From assembly GCF_001623075.1 (NCBI RefSeq), contig NZ_LMCF01000024.1, positions 124,001 through 188,000 of the forward strand: 64,000 nucleotides of DNA, in the 5' to 3' direction. Position 1 is the stretch's first letter. Each line of letters opens with the position of its first letter. Position numbers and translations under genes: made by a program. Under the pieces are notes generated by a model. It saw only the letters and a program-made list of their open reading frames with translations, made no database searches and was not told where the DNA came from. Origin of the DNA: Pseudovibrio sp. Ad37 (GTDB lineage Bacteria > Pseudomonadota > Alphaproteobacteria > Rhizobiales > Stappiaceae). Of this stretch, positions 4,390 to 8,190 are shown piece after piece.

Positions 4390-5334
4390 CTATAATCGCT
4401 GCCAGTGCGGCGGAACAATCAAACTGTCATCCAGATTGGGGTTCTTGAACCACTTAAGCGGCGCTATCACGTGTTTCTCTTTATTCCCGTTCAAAAAAGC
4501 AGCCCACCAGCTGAAGGTGCTGTTGGCGGTGACGATGTGATCGCAAGATGACATAACCATCAGATCTTCATAGTCTTTTCCATCCTGCATCGGATCCGCA
4601 AAAAACACATTGTCTTGCTGCGGAACCACCTCACGCGCTCGTTCAGGGCTGTCAGAGAAGACATAGAAGGTCAGGCCGGGAATGCGCTCTGAGAGGAAAT
4701 CCATCGCGCCCTTGTAATAGCCAGCAGAGCACAGCCCAAAATTCTGCAGATTGTGCGCCTGACTATAATCGCCATAGCGCACATGCAAGGCAACAGATGG
4801 CCCGGAGTTAATCCGTTGCAGCAGTTTCAGCCGCTCAAGCACCATTGGTTTCTTGAGCGTGATCTCTTCTCGCAACTGCTCCATGATGGAAAATGGCATC
4901 TCCCACTTTTGCCAATACCCGTCCAGATAAGCGCTTTGCTTGAAGACGGGCGTATCTCCATCTCGCAGCAATTCGTCCTCGCGCATGTAGCGGCGTTGAT
5001 AGAAGGGATAGAACTTGCGGCATATCTTGACGGTTTGCCCAAACCCCTGCGCTGGCCAAAGCACTGCAGACATTTCAGATTCAGTGGCAGATAAACCCTG
5101 CGTTTTGAAAAGGTTGAGGCAATAGGAGCGGTTGAAGTACTGCGCGTACTCACTGTGGTCGAAACGAAGTTTCATCCTCGTTTCAAGCGCGATTTTCCGC
5201 CCGAAAGCATACTGAAAAAGCTGATTGCCAATGCCGCCGCGGATACGGACAATCAATGTTGGTTTGAGCTTGCGCCGACGCGCAGCACCAGACTTTCGCA
5301 CCTGAGAAGCAACTGACATACGTCCCCCGTACAC
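4390..5334 (-). CDS. Glycosyltransferase family 11, probable alpha-1,2-fucosyltransferase
   Basis: Product is 314 aa. It carries the three family-11 signatures: RIRGGIGNQLFQYAFGR near residue 30, VALHVRYGDY (the HxRxGDY GDP-fucose site) in the middle, and ANSTFSWWAAFLNGN near the C-terminus. GT11 enzymes transfer L-fucose from GDP-fucose to galactose on LPS O-antigen, capsule or host-like glycans. The basic N-terminus before the first motif is not a signal peptide, so the enzyme is predicted to be cytoplasmic. No GDP-fucose synthesis genes are visible nearby. Three CTAGGT repeats lie upstream between this gene and the divergent HAD gene. Confidence 0.9.
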   Translation of the reverse strand: MYGGRMSVASQVRKSGAARRRKLKPTLIVRIRGGIGNQLFQYAFGRKIALETRMKLRFDHSEYAQYFNRSYCLNLFKTQGLSATESEMSAVLWPAQGFGQTVKICRKFYPFYQRRYMREDELLRDGDTPVFKQSAYLDGYWQKWEMPFSIMEQLREEITLKKPMVLERLKLLQRINSGPSVALHVRYGDYSQAHNLQNFGLCSAGYYKGAMDFLSERIPGLTFYVFSDSPERAREVVPQQDNVFFADPMQDGKDYEDLMVMSSCDHIVTANSTFSWWAAFLNGNKEKHVIAPLKWFKNPNLDDSLIVPPHWQRL

Positions 5335-5530
5335 AAATCAGCGTGTTTACCCCTCAGCCTACCGGAGCTTTGGCAAAGGCTCACTACTAGGTTTTTGGGA
5401 GTAAATCTCCTAGGTCGAGCTGAAACTGTGCTAGGTCTGCGAGGATAAGTTGTAATGTGCTCCTGCGGTATCATGAAAATGCCATGCTTGCTGATAACAC
5501 TGCACTCGATATAACCAGCTGGATTTGCTT

Positions 5531-6229
5531 ATGAACTACGATTTACTTATTTGGGATTGCGACGGCTGTTTGATTGATAGCGAGTGGATTGGCTGTCAGG
5601 TCGAGGCCGAAGGCTTCACCAAAGCTGGATACCCGATCAGCACGGAAGAAATGATCGCCCGCTTCTGCGGCGTGTCGTCAGCAGAAGTATTTGGCCAGGT
5701 TGAAGCGGAAATTGGCGTCAACATCCGCCACCATGAGGCGCTCGTAAATCAGGATGAAGCGCTAAAGGCAGCCTTTGAGCAGCATCTCAAGCCAATCGCT
5801 GGCATCCATGAAGCATTGCATGAGTTGGATAACTCATTCCCGAATTTGCAAATGTGCATCGCCTCTGGCAGTTCCATGGACCGTCTGGAACATACCCTCA
5901 AGCTCACAAATCTATATGATCGGTTTGAGAATAAATATTTCTCGGCTGATCTGGTTGAAAAGGGCAAGCCAGCGCCAGATGTGTTCCTGAAAGCAGCAAG
6001 CGAGATGGGCGTCGCTCCCGAAAAATGCGTTGTTGTTGAAGACAGTCACCTCGGCTTGCAAGCAGCTCGGGCAGCAGGCATGACCGCCCTCGGCTTCACC
6101 GGAGCCTCCCACGGCAACGCAGATTTACACAGCCGTCTTGAACAGCAAAACCCAATGGCAATCTTTAATGATATGAAAGAGTTAGCCGATCTCATCAAAA
6201 AGCTGAATATGCTCAAAAGTACAGCTTGA
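5531..6229 (+). CDS. HAD-superfamily IA hydrolase (phosphoglycolate/sugar-phosphate phosphatase-like)
   Basis: Product is 232 aa from ATG 5531; an in-frame TTG at 5525 is less likely. Motif I is WDCDGCLIDS with nucleophile D9 and acid D11, motif II is the CIASGSS serine, motif III the lysine in KGKPAPD, and motif IV VVVEDSHLGLQAA. The cap lies between motifs I and II, as in subfamily IA. E. coli relatives such as YieH and YcjU act on small phosphorylated sugars, but the substrate here is unknown. The gene stands alone between the fucosyltransferase and tyrS. Confidence 0.85.
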   Translation: MNYDLLIWDCDGCLIDSEWIGCQVEAEGFTKAGYPISTEEMIARFCGVSSAEVFGQVEAEIGVNIRHHEALVNQDEALKAAFEQHLKPIAGIHEALHELDNSFPNLQMCIASGSSMDRLEHTLKLTNLYDRFENKYFSADLVEKGKPAPDVFLKAASEMGVAPEKCVVVEDSHLGLQAARAAGMTALGFTGASHGNADLHSRLEQQNPMAIFNDMKELADLIKKLNMLKSTA

Positions 6230-6263
6230 GGAACGCCGAGCAGCACAAACTGCCAAAACTTTC

Positions 6264-6293
6264 TTGACAGGGCAGGGGCGTTGCGGTCATACA
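6264..6293 (+). promoter_or_regulatory. Promoter of the tyrS leader transcript
   Basis: A perfect -35 TTGACA (6264-6269) is followed after 17-18 bases by TCATAC or CATACA (6287-6293). The predicted start of transcription, about 6299-6301, coincides with the ATG of the leader ORF at 6301, so the leader would be translated from a leaderless mRNA. Confidence 0.65.
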
Positions 6294-6300
6294 CTTGGGC

Positions 6301-6375
6301 ATGAACAAGAGCCTGACCATCATTTCTGCGGTTTATTATTATGCGCCCGACATATCGGCGGCCGCGTTCCTATAA
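6301..6375 (+). CDS. Tyrosine-rich leader peptide of tyrS (24 aa)
   Basis: A 24-codon ORF begins MNKSLTIISAVYYY and contains three consecutive TAT codons at positions 12-14 (6334-6342), then ends with TAA at 6373-6375. It has no Shine-Dalgarno sequence but sits at the predicted transcription start. Sinorhizobium trpL is a known leaderless leader peptide of this kind. GGCGGC at 6357-6362, inside the ORF 15 bases after the last Tyr codon, is complementary to the 5' arm of the downstream hairpin. A ribosome waiting at the Tyr codons would leave that sequence free, while one at the stop codon would cover it. I infer that it senses charged tRNA-Tyr. Confidence 0.7.
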   Translation: MNKSLTIISAVYYYAPDISAAAFL

Positions 6376-6411
6376 ACTCATGTAAAATTGAGGTCAGAAC
6401 CAAAAGCCGCC
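6357..6411 (+). promoter_or_regulatory. Predicted antiterminator pairing in the tyrS leader
   Basis: GGCGGC (6357-6362) can pair with GCCGCC (6406-6411), which is also the core of the terminator 5' arm, so the two structures are mutually exclusive. CTGACC (6313-6318) can also pair with GGTCAG (6392-6397). Read by eye; no folding energy was calculated. Confidence 0.55.
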
Positions 6412-6433
6412 GCGTAGGCGGCTTTCGTATTTT
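6403..6433 (+). terminator. Attenuator hairpin upstream of tyrS
   Basis: AAAGCCGCC (6403-6411) and GGCGGCTTT (6417-6425) form a perfect 9-bp stem with a 5-base loop, followed by CGTATTTT. The T run is broken, so termination may be partial. It lies between a Tyr-rich leader ORF and tyrS, the position expected for an attenuator. Confidence 0.65.
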
Positions 6434-6434
6434 A

Positions 6435-6459
6435 GCTCTCCTGCGCGGCGAAGGAGAGC
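6435..6459 (+). promoter_or_regulatory. Hairpin enclosing the tyrS ribosome binding site
   Basis: GCTCTCCT (6435-6442) pairs perfectly with AGGAGAGC (6452-6459). The second arm is the tyrS Shine-Dalgarno sequence, so the stem would mask it. CGCGGCG in the loop (6444-6450) is complementary to CGCCGCG (6408-6414) in the attenuator, offering a further alternative fold. Confidence 0.6.
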
Positions 6460-6462
6460 ATT

Positions 6463-7734
6463 ATGAAACATACCGTTGTAGACACCACCCGCTGCTTCCG
6501 CCCAAAATCTGAAGCCCTTCAACTGCTGATCGATCGCGGTTTCCTGCATCAATGCACGGATTTGGAAGCGCTGGACGAAAAACTCCAAGCAGGCCCCATC
6601 ACAGCATACGCTGGATTTGATGCAACGGCTGACAGCCTGCATGTCGGCCACCTGCTGCCATTAATGGCCATGCGTTGGCTGCAGAAAACCGGACATAAAC
6701 CAATCCTGTTGGTGGGCGGCGGTACCACGCGCGTTGGTGATCCAAGCTTCCGCACTGAAAGTCGTCCGCTGCTGGATGATACCCAGATAGAACACAATCT
6801 CGCAGGTATCCGCGCAACCGTAGAACGCCTCTTCGACTTGTCTGAAGGGCAGGGCCAAATCGTCAACAACGCTGAATGGCTGGACGAGTTCCGCTTCCTC
6901 GAGTTCCTGCGGGACTTCGGTACGCACTTCACCGTCAACCGCATGATGACCTTCGACAGCGTCCGCTCCCGCCTTGAGGCACAACAACCACTCTCCGTGC
7001 TCGAGTTTTGCTACATGATGCTGCAAGCCGTCGACTTCGTTGAGCTCAACCAGCGCTTCGACTGCACATTGCAGATCGGTGGTTCCGATCAGTGGGGCAA
7101 CATCGTCAATGGTGTGGACCTTGGTCGCCGTTCAGGCAGCCAGCTCTTCGGCTTCACCCTGCCACTGCTAACAACAGCCTCGGGCAGCAAAATGGGCAAA
7201 ACCGCAGAAGGCGCTGTGTGGCTCAACCCATCCCGCCTCTCCAGCTTCGGCTTCTGGCAGTTCTGGCGCAATGCGGATGATGCTGATGTACCTCGGCTAC
7301 TGAAACTCTTCACCGATCTGCCACTGGGCGAAATTGACCGCCTGTCTTCCTTACAAGGGCAGGAGCTGAATGAGGCCAAAAAGATCCTGGCAACACAAGT
7401 CACCGGCATCGTCCACGGTCTGGCCGCAGCAGAAGCTGCTCTCCAGCAAGGCGAGGCGCTCTTCAGCGGCCAGGAAGCCCTCACCCAACCAACCCACGAA
7501 CTCCCTCTGGCTCTGCTCGCCAAACCACTCGGCCTACTGGACCTACTGGTTAAAACTGGCTTCGCCACCACCAACAGCGAAGCCCGCCGCCTCATCCGCG
7601 GCGGCGGTGTTCGTCTGAATACATCCATTGTCCTAGAAGAAACCCGGGTGATTTCAGAAGGCGACCTGAAACCGGGTGAACGCCTGACATTAGCGGTTGG
7701 GAAGCGTCGTAAGGCATTGGTGGAGTTTGTATAA
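6463..7734 (+). CDS. tyrS: Tyrosyl-tRNA synthetase
   Basis: Product is 423 aa, the normal length for the TyrRS type that ends in an S4 domain. The class I signature HVGH is at residues 60-63, the KMSKS-equivalent loop is KMGKT beginning at K243, and an S4-like RNA-binding domain (LLVKTGFATTNSEARRLI) lies near the C-terminus. It charges tRNA-Tyr in the cytoplasm. ATG 6463 is preceded by AAGGAGAG at good spacing, but that site is buried in a hairpin. The gene sits alone behind a Tyr-codon leader and attenuator, so expression is predicted to rise when charged tRNA-Tyr runs short. Confidence 0.97.
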   Translation: MKHTVVDTTRCFRPKSEALQLLIDRGFLHQCTDLEALDEKLQAGPITAYAGFDATADSLHVGHLLPLMAMRWLQKTGHKPILLVGGGTTRVGDPSFRTESRPLLDDTQIEHNLAGIRATVERLFDLSEGQGQIVNNAEWLDEFRFLEFLRDFGTHFTVNRMMTFDSVRSRLEAQQPLSVLEFCYMMLQAVDFVELNQRFDCTLQIGGSDQWGNIVNGVDLGRRSGSQLFGFTLPLLTTASGSKMGKTAEGAVWLNPSRLSSFGFWQFWRNADDADVPRLLKLFTDLPLGEIDRLSSLQGQELNEAKKILATQVTGIVHGLAAAEAALQQGEALFSGQEALTQPTHELPLALLAKPLGLLDLLVKTGFATTNSEARRLIRGGGVRLNTSIVLEETRVISEGDLKPGERLTLAVGKRRKALVEFV

Positions 7735-7739
7735 ATAAG

Positions 7740-7775
7740 TAGAAGGTGGCGGTCAGTCCAGAACTGGCCGCTTCT
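7740..7775 (+). terminator. Possible terminator hairpin after tyrS
   Basis: GCGGTCAG (around 7749) can pair with CTGGCCGC across a 7-base loop (one G-T pair), inside a wider AGAAG/CTTCT pairing. There is no T run, so this is weak. Confidence 0.35.
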
Positions 7776-7782
7776 ATGCAGG

Positions 7783-8190
7783 CTACAAGACCTCACCATT
7801 CACGATCGACCAGTGATGAGGTTGAAGTTCTCGTAGGTTCTTAAAGATCAGCTTGTTGTCACTATTGGAAACTGCTGCCTTCACATCCCCACCCCAATGA
7901 ACCAACCGCTCCTGACAAATACCGCAGGGTGTTAATCTAACAAAGGGGCTGTTCTCATCATCCCGGCAGATACACAGGGAATGAGTTACAACTTCGTCCA
8001 GCTTATGCGCTTCCAGAATTGCACCTACTTCCATGCAAAGGGATAGGCCATCATTCTTGGTATCTGGTGCAATGCTGGTTAGAATTTTGCCGCTCTCTGT
8101 TCTTAAAGATGCTGCCCCACCCCAACCATTAGGATAACGATGCTCAATCAGCAGCTTAGCTGCATCAAACAGAGTTTGCTCAATAATCAT
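7783..8190 (-). CDS. Cytidine deaminase-like zinc hydrolase
   Basis: Product is 135 aa, the size of homotetrameric cytidine deaminases and blasticidin-S deaminases. Zinc ligands and catalytic acid are visible as CMEVGAI (C52, E54) and PCGICQERL (C89, C92). The family removes an amino group from cytidine or related bases and nucleosides in the cytoplasm. Replacement of the common HAE triplet by CME places it in the CDD branch rather than the dCMP or tRNA adenosine deaminase branch. The substrate cannot be assigned. It is a single-gene unit convergent with tyrS, so there is no contextual clue to pathway. Confidence 0.75.
   Translation of the reverse strand: MIIEQTLFDAAKLLIEHRYPNGWGGAASLRTESGKILTSIAPDTKNDGLSLCMEVGAILEAHKLDEVVTHSLCICRDDENSPFVRLTPCGICQERLVHWGGDVKAAVSNSDNKLIFKNLRELQPHHWSIVNGEVL

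Follow-up and report, generated by a model that had tools for sequence, protein, structure and literature searches.

A predicted tyrosine-codon attenuator upstream of a second, tyrosine-poor tyrosyl-tRNA synthetase gene in Pseudovibrio and its relatives

The window analyzed here is a stretch of 64,000 nucleotides (nt) from Pseudovibrio sp. Ad37 (contig NZ_LMCF01000024.1, positions 124,001 to 188,000, forward strand), which carries a tyrosyl-tRNA synthetase gene, tyrS2, preceded by a short open reading frame (ORF) with a run of Tyr codons. This gene is an auxiliary copy and not the sole tyrS of its genome, a point missing from an earlier note on this DNA. As modeled from the sequence, a ribosome-mediated transcription attenuator in the leader very probably controls the auxiliary synthetase; the physiological use of the product as an emergency TyrS is proposed with less assurance. 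Attenuation by Tyr codons is supported by the conservation of the leader in all 50 loci compared, the spacing between the Tyr codons and the antiterminator, the folding of transcripts under a ribosome footprint and the likeness to trpL, which also uphold the reading of the earlier note, and by the co-occurrence with a second tyrS. The parts, their geometry, their conservation, the gene co-occurrence and the tyrosine depletion of the enzyme are direct results of sequence comparison and folding.

Known cases of ribosome-mediated attenuation already cover several amino acids and synthetases, and a Tyr attenuator at a tyrS gene would add a new amino acid and a new target to this known mechanism. 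Searches of the full-text literature, in which subscription journals are poorly covered and an earlier prediction may exist, found no Tyr-codon leader-peptide attenuator.

The leader contains all parts of a trp-type attenuator, which is built of four segments. The -35 box TTGACA of a predicted promoter lies at 6264-6269, and the leader ORF (MNKSLTIISAVYYYAPDISAAAFL, 6301-6375) extends from the ATG at 6301 over 24 codons to the TAA stop at 6373-6375. The control codons TAT TAT TAT occupy 6334-6342; most Roseibium leaders read Y-F-Y-Y at this place. The chance of three Tyr within four codons anywhere in a random 24-codon ORF is ∼5e-4, based on the Tyr frequency in the long open frames of the window. 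Segment 1 is the 5′ strand of a protector hairpin (6341-6351), whose 3′ strand (6358-6367) overlaps segment 2, the antiterminator strand CGGCGGC (6356-6362), and hides it in the minimum free energy fold of the free window RNA. Segments 3 and 4 are the 5′ arm (6403-6411) and the 3′ arm (6417-6425) of a terminator hairpin with nine pairs and a 5-nt loop, followed by the T-rich tail CGTATTTTA (6426-6434); in most Roseibium, TTTTT stands immediately after the stem. The stretch GCCGCCG (6406-6412) can alternatively pair with the antiterminator strand in seven of seven positions. The protector helix, which the earlier note did not name, thus completes the four-segment layout. The coordinates that the earlier note assigned to the TTGACA box, the 24-codon ORF, the three Tyr codons and the perfect 9-bp hairpin at 6403-6425 are all accurate; the alternative pairing that it described between GGCGGC (6357-6362) and GCCGCC exists as well, but was drawn one base too short. 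The RNA from 6301 to 6470 is far more stable than 200 dinucleotide shuffles (z = -4.65).

The transcript is likely leaderless, starting at or near the leader ATG, because TTGAC lies 34-38 nt 5′ of this codon in 50/50 loci. For leaders with several in-frame ATGs, the most upstream one was used for this distance, except at L034, for which the nearest was taken. The -10 element in the window is weak, and a promoter scan lists no promoter at the leader start. The leader ORF matched no NCBIfam protein family, and the region 6240-6470 had no match in a plasmid collection. A T-box or another Rfam family was also considered and rejected; within 5000-8000, nothing was found at E ≤ 1 save isrK, which scored 19.1 bits (gathering cut-off 50). 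Downstream, tyrS2 (6463-7734) encodes a protein that matches TIGR00234, tyrosine--tRNA ligase, with 370.7 bits against a cut-off of 113.8 and contains the class I W/Y (PF00579) and S4 domains.

Relatives of the locus were identified by scanning genome contigs with the window protein, and the best 80 of 94 places were examined. The TyrS2 group (n = 50) comprises the window and the 49 closest loci (L001-L049), which belong to Pseudovibrio, Roseibium/Labrenzia, Pannonibacter and a few otherwise labelled genomes; the bacteria that carry this leader and tyrS2 are mostly marine. Each of the 49 closest loci has, upstream of tyrS, a short ORF in which a stretch of five codons contains two or more for Tyr; the Tyr run whose conservation the earlier note had proposed to look for in relatives is thus conserved in this group. 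The in-frame Tyr leader and the GCCGC..GGCGGC terminator hairpin occur in 50/50 loci. Among the 31 more distant tyrS loci, none combines two adjacent Tyr codons with such a terminator (for L061, only ∼150 nt of upstream DNA is present), and the one Tyr-rich short ORF (L066) is unrelated. The canonical tyrS loci inspected (27/27) likewise show no pattern of Tyr run plus terminator.

A covariance model built from the 50 leaders, R1, was run on 87 genomes of the family Stappiaceae and detected the element in 67, namely in 16/16, 5/5, 1/1, and 45/45 genomes of four genera. In three other genera of the family, R1 found no element (0/3, 0/3, and 0/14). When R1 was run on more than 40 genomes, the filters were stricter and the order, class, and phylum were sampled, so that the distribution is a lower bound, and the gene next to an R1 match was checked in the inspected loci. 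Outside the family, the element is present in G396 and G449, both of one other family of the order (f44), as leader MIKNAPIAANYYATLP before a GFDATA-type tyrS, and in G719 of another order as leader MTEMMHITAVYFARLP before tyrS.

The presence of the leader coincides with the presence of a second synthetase gene. Besides the window copy, the Ad37 genome harbors one more tyrS on a different contig, and the two are 49% identical; the other copy is 55-67% and the window copy 51-62% identical to distant alphaproteobacterial tyrS. Two full tyrS were found in the genomes of 47/47 leader-bearing relatives, a count that covers 47 of the 49 and leaves out L027 and L031, which lie on contigs of metagenome-assembled genomes. 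Family genomes without the leader, from three genera, have a single tyrS in 20/20 cases; therefore, leader and second tyrS travel together in every genome tested. Two tyrS each are also present in G059, G396, G449, and G719, and the other genomes of genus g76 in family f44 have one according to the order table. About 29 genomes of the order outside the family have two or more tyrS matches, counting matches of every strength and length. The origin of the second copies was approached with two trees. In a quick tree of 102 rows, Stappiaceae TyrS2 and the copies from f44 and G719 stay apart; a careful tree of 38 rows, from which eight requested rows are missing, places f44, G719, and Stappiaceae TyrS2 on the same side of a weakly supported branch (66/58). 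These trees neither establish nor exclude a common origin of the three. In the L011 genome, a third tyrS is present as a broken fragment, interrupted by a TAA (G011:C23:186969-187256), ∼3 kb away from the canonical copy.

For a ribosome switch, spacing offers the strongest test. Counted from the first base of the last Tyr codon, the antiterminator begins 16-20 nt downstream in 50/50 loci (16 nt in 41), a distance just past the edge of a ribosome that holds this codon in the A site. Relative to the stop codon, its position shifts between -26 and +2, a 28-nt spread. The antiterminator complementarity is 6-9 nt long in every locus. In L011, L012, L024, and L029, the element stands behind the stop codon, yet it is retained, and therefore the RNA, and not the peptide only, is conserved.

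Folding of cut transcripts, in which the RNA ends before the 3′ arm of the terminator and a ribosome footprint of 31 nt is masked, was scored by counting loci with P(antiterminator) > 0.5. With the first Tyr codon in the A site, the antiterminator formed in 50/50 loci, with the last Tyr codon in 48/50 and with the stop codon in 2/50, in agreement with the claim of the earlier note that a ribosome stalled at Tyr would free GGCGGC and one at the stop would cover it. A smaller footprint on the same transcripts gave 50, 44, and 0 loci for the first Tyr, the last Tyr and the stop codon, and 29 for no ribosome. When the A site was moved codon by codon, the antiterminator was allowed in 48, 44, 23, 2, and 0 of the 50 loci at the last Tyr codon and at the four codons that follow it; the Tyr run therefore sits near the last permissive position. 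The window RNA without a ribosome formed the protector in the cut transcript (P 1.0). The trp leader of the same genome served as a positive control. This leader, MMTMQAQNMLWWWRR before trpE(G), allowed the antiterminator with a probability of 1.0 at WWW and of 0.40, 0.03, and 0.01 at the codons thereafter. It was located through trpE(G), as a pattern search of the genome for TGGTGGTGG did not help.

The mechanism that these parts suggest is as follows. RNA polymerase would begin transcription at the leader ATG or close to it, with a ribosome following on the leaderless ORF. While Tyr-tRNA is ample, the ribosome would clear the Tyr codons, reach the stop codon, and in most loci cover the antiterminator strand, upon which the terminator at 6403-6425 would form and transcription would stop before tyrS2. 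When Tyr-tRNA is short, a ribosome stalled at 6334-6342 would mask the 5′ strand of the protector and free CGGCGGC at 6356-6362, which could pair with GCCGCCG at 6406-6412 before the 3′ arm of the terminator exists, and tyrS2 would be read. The trigger might be a shortage of Tyr, inhibition of the canonical TyrS, or both. At a cost of two to four Tyr-tRNA per molecule versus about eight to nine, TyrS2 would need so few Tyr that it could be made during the shortage and would restore the charging of Tyr-tRNA beside the canonical TyrS.

The composition of the enzyme agrees with such a use. Window TyrS2 contains two Tyr in 423 residues, Y49 and Y184. In an alignment with the solved TyrRS 1jii from S. 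aureus, they are the Tyr of VTLYCG and EFTYTILQ, and correspond to Tyr34 and Tyr169, which bind the substrate in B. stearothermophilus TyrRS. The 50 TyrS2, which represent one related group and not 50 independent events, have 2-4 Tyr each (mean 2.84). The corresponding numbers are 8-11 for the canonical copy in two-tyrS Stappiaceae (27/27), 7-11 for single-copy Stappiaceae TyrS (20/20) and 6-11 for distant alphaproteobacterial TyrS (29/31, the other two, L070 and L077, being truncated and uncounted), or 6-11 in 76/78 when all comparison proteins are pooled. Counts began ∼32-44 residues ahead of the HIGH-like motif and ran to the stop; the window protein was counted whole. Of the 20 residues, Tyr is the most depleted in TyrS2 relative to TyrS1 (ratio 0.31), followed by Lys (0.52). 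Where TyrS1 mostly has Tyr, window TyrS2 carries Phe (145, 192, 262, 264, and 267), Val (190), or Arg (71). The f44 and G719 copies behind a leader have 5-6 Tyr and their canonical partners 9-12.

A low content of the cognate amino acid in biosynthetic enzymes is a published hypothesis (PMC4209129); in the main text of that article, the term tRNA synthetase does not occur. By extension, TyrS2 could be a starvation-proof synthetase, purged of Tyr down to about the two active-site tyrosines and hence translatable when the leader reports a lack of Tyr-tRNA. The attenuator and the Tyr-poor enzyme would then have evolved together as a single module for emergencies, perhaps as a defense against canonical TyrS inhibitors, with leader and second tyrS present in at least three families. 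This wider proposal is plausible but tentative, and we place it a little short of an even bet. It would give Pseudovibrio, Roseibium, and Pannonibacter a reason for keeping two tyrosyl-tRNA synthetases, and the idea that enzymes of starvation avoid the missing amino acid could be tested on two paralogues in one cell, a Tyr-poor, induced one versus a normal one.

Several observations weigh against Tyr-codon attenuation as modeled here. Covariation gives limited help. The terminator is paired in 98.7% of cells and invariant in six of eight pairs, the antiterminator is invariant in four of seven pairs, and both are so close to invariant that covariation offers them no support. The protector is paired in 86% of cells, and two of its pairs are changed on both sides, as in P. 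exalbescens with an A-U pair and a longer helix; one pair, at columns 60-79, is broken in 37/49. Of the compensatory changes that the earlier note had sought in both stems, there are thus a few in the protector and none that back the terminator or the antiterminator. For the combined structure of protector and terminator, two double-changed pairs also arise in two of 500 shuffles and in one of six slid versions (-2 columns), the latter with 29.6% versus 92.3% of cells paired. The folding has weak points of its own. Without a ribosome, the cut transcript forms the antiterminator rather than the protector in 29/50 loci. In the full leader at equilibrium, the terminator is favored in 48/50 even with a ribosome at the last Tyr, and the antiterminator in just 23/50 with a ribosome at the first Tyr, so that the argument for attenuation is a kinetic one; equilibrium folding of the full leader discriminates poorly between ribosome positions. 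In L007, L008, and L010, the stop codon lies so far downstream that a ribosome terminating there would leave part of the antiterminator uncovered. In both f44 leaders and the G719 leader, the drop in the codon scan comes three to four codons past the last Tyr, a later position than in Stappiaceae. The hairpin around the tyrS2 Shine-Dalgarno sequence is left unexplained by the attenuator model, and a Phe codon two codons before the last Tyr in 35/50 leaders indicates that Phe may be sensed too.

The last of these points leads to the first alternative, a general aromatic attenuator in which Y-F-Y-Y reports a shortage of either Phe or Tyr and TyrS2 belongs to a broader response to aromatic amino acids. 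In its favor, some of the more distant R1 matches have runs of Trp, Tyr, and Phe (W/Y/F) and precede aroG and GNAT genes. The run itself speaks otherwise: its penultimate codon, like its last, is Tyr in 50/50 loci, at the positions where stalling counts most; Phe is absent from the run of the YYY leaders, that of the window included; and the target is tyrS in all 50. A general aromatic attenuator is therefore regarded as rather unlikely.

A second alternative treats the leader and its terminator as an independent gene for a small RNA or small peptide, similar to rnTrpL/peTrpL of S. meliloti, with tyrS2 transcribed from another promoter. The predicted product of termination, a leaderless leader RNA of ∼130 nt, would fit this description, and for the S. 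meliloti trp leader a role in trans is reported (PMC7298713, PMC10117765). A promoter scan shows no promoter-like site between the terminator and the start of tyrS2, the leader is linked to the second tyrS, and the conserved spacing of the antiterminator would be useless in a stand-alone terminator, all of which make an independent gene very doubtful; a trans role of the leader in addition to attenuation may exist. The last alternative dispenses with a ribosome switch: the region would hold a simple terminator for transcription from upstream plus an ORF that arose by chance, or its RNA would bind tRNA (as a T-box) or a protein. This reading could draw on the strong GC hairpin with its T-rich tail and on the Shine-Dalgarno hairpin as a possible protein or RNA target, but is extremely improbable given that Tyr codons, promoter distance and spacing are kept in 50/50 loci.

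The Shine-Dalgarno sequence of tyrS2 (AGGAG, 6452-6456) is held within a hairpin predicted by folding at 6435-6459, which takes various forms in relatives and may provide a second layer of control alongside Tyr-codon attenuation. Compared with composition-matched shuffles, this region has a mean z of -2.5 and lies below -1.5 in 39/50 loci, and the Shine-Dalgarno sequence is paired on average >0.8 in 24/50. RNAalifold returned no consensus pairs over the hairpin, probably because the MAFFT alignment is poor. A switch that couples the attenuator to translation was rejected in silico: masking of the terminator 5′ arm shifted the pairing of the Shine-Dalgarno sequence by >0.2 in 4/50 loci, with one drop and three rises. 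Elsewhere in the window leader, early codons (6313-6325) and a stretch after the stop (6385-6397) form a long-range inverted repeat. In several relatives, the leader start seems by eye to be complementary to ATCTTGCTC 3′ of the stop, which might limit re-initiation.

Attenuators of trp and phe operate by the same ribosome-mediated scheme as that proposed for tyrS2. In its arrangement, the system resembles an auxiliary, antibiotic-resistant TrpRS of Streptomyces, which is reportedly under ribosome-mediated attenuation (Vecchione and Sello 2010). Both systems consist of a second, inducible copy of a synthetase behind a leader peptide with codons for its own amino acid; the present one differs in the use of Tyr instead of Trp, in its phylum and in its predicted leaderless leader. 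Among alphaproteobacterial synthetase genes, cysS of Rhodobacterales is preceded by the uORFC-8-2 motif, a predicted Cys-codon attenuator (PMC8632094), which shares the short ORF with tandem cognate codons and the predicted ribosome-mediated attenuation; that motif concerns Cys and cysS, and the available text of PMC8632094 mentions no second-copy setting. The trpL attenuator of Sinorhizobium is leaderless (PMC10117765), and it resembles the tyrS2 leader, as does trpL of the Ad37 genome, in the run of cognate codons and the competition between an antiterminator and a GCCGCC terminator arm. The Ad37 trpL also shares the step in the codon scan just after the run; the trpL leaders differ in their Trp codons and their target, trpE(G). 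In Firmicutes, genes for tyrosine and synthetases are governed by T-boxes (PMC1262725), which likewise convert a signal of uncharged tRNA into transcription antitermination before a synthetase gene, but in which the tRNA binds the RNA directly and no leader peptide is involved.

Leaders of other genes were also observed. The Ad37 leader MMTMQAQNMLWWWRR with its terminator before trpE(G) (L231, G000:C65) belongs to the known trp attenuator type, and one Stappiaceae trpL, in the L011 genome recorded as Pseudovibrio stylochi, scored only 32.1 bits with R1. Outside the class, an R1 match in G1058 (L242) has the leader MSEIQRRVFIFFFMQAT; the first residues encoded by the next gene resemble pheA, a classic attenuator target. 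At L152 (f24), the leader MIHLTASFWYFYYSSLAAGGLRSI with the run W-Y-F-Y-Y precedes an AroG-type 3-deoxy-D-arabino-heptulosonate 7-phosphate (DAHP) synthase gene, and its codon scan has no clean drop after the run. L154 (f24) and L157/L200 (f36) were grouped with it, the genes of L154 and L200 being AroG-like by translation only. In three families, leaderless-looking ORFs with W/Y/F runs and a terminator stand before GNAT acetyltransferase genes (L156 and L159 of f24, L160 of f44, and L191 and L193 of f118), with the runs SYFWAYL, TYFWLYL, SYWYPSC, and AWYFTPLT. Of these genes, the three that were scanned (L156, L160, and L191) matched PF00583, and those of L159 and L193 were assigned to GNAT by likeness. 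The codon scan is attenuator-like in L160 and L191 and less clear in L156, and a leader resembling that of L160 is present at L158.

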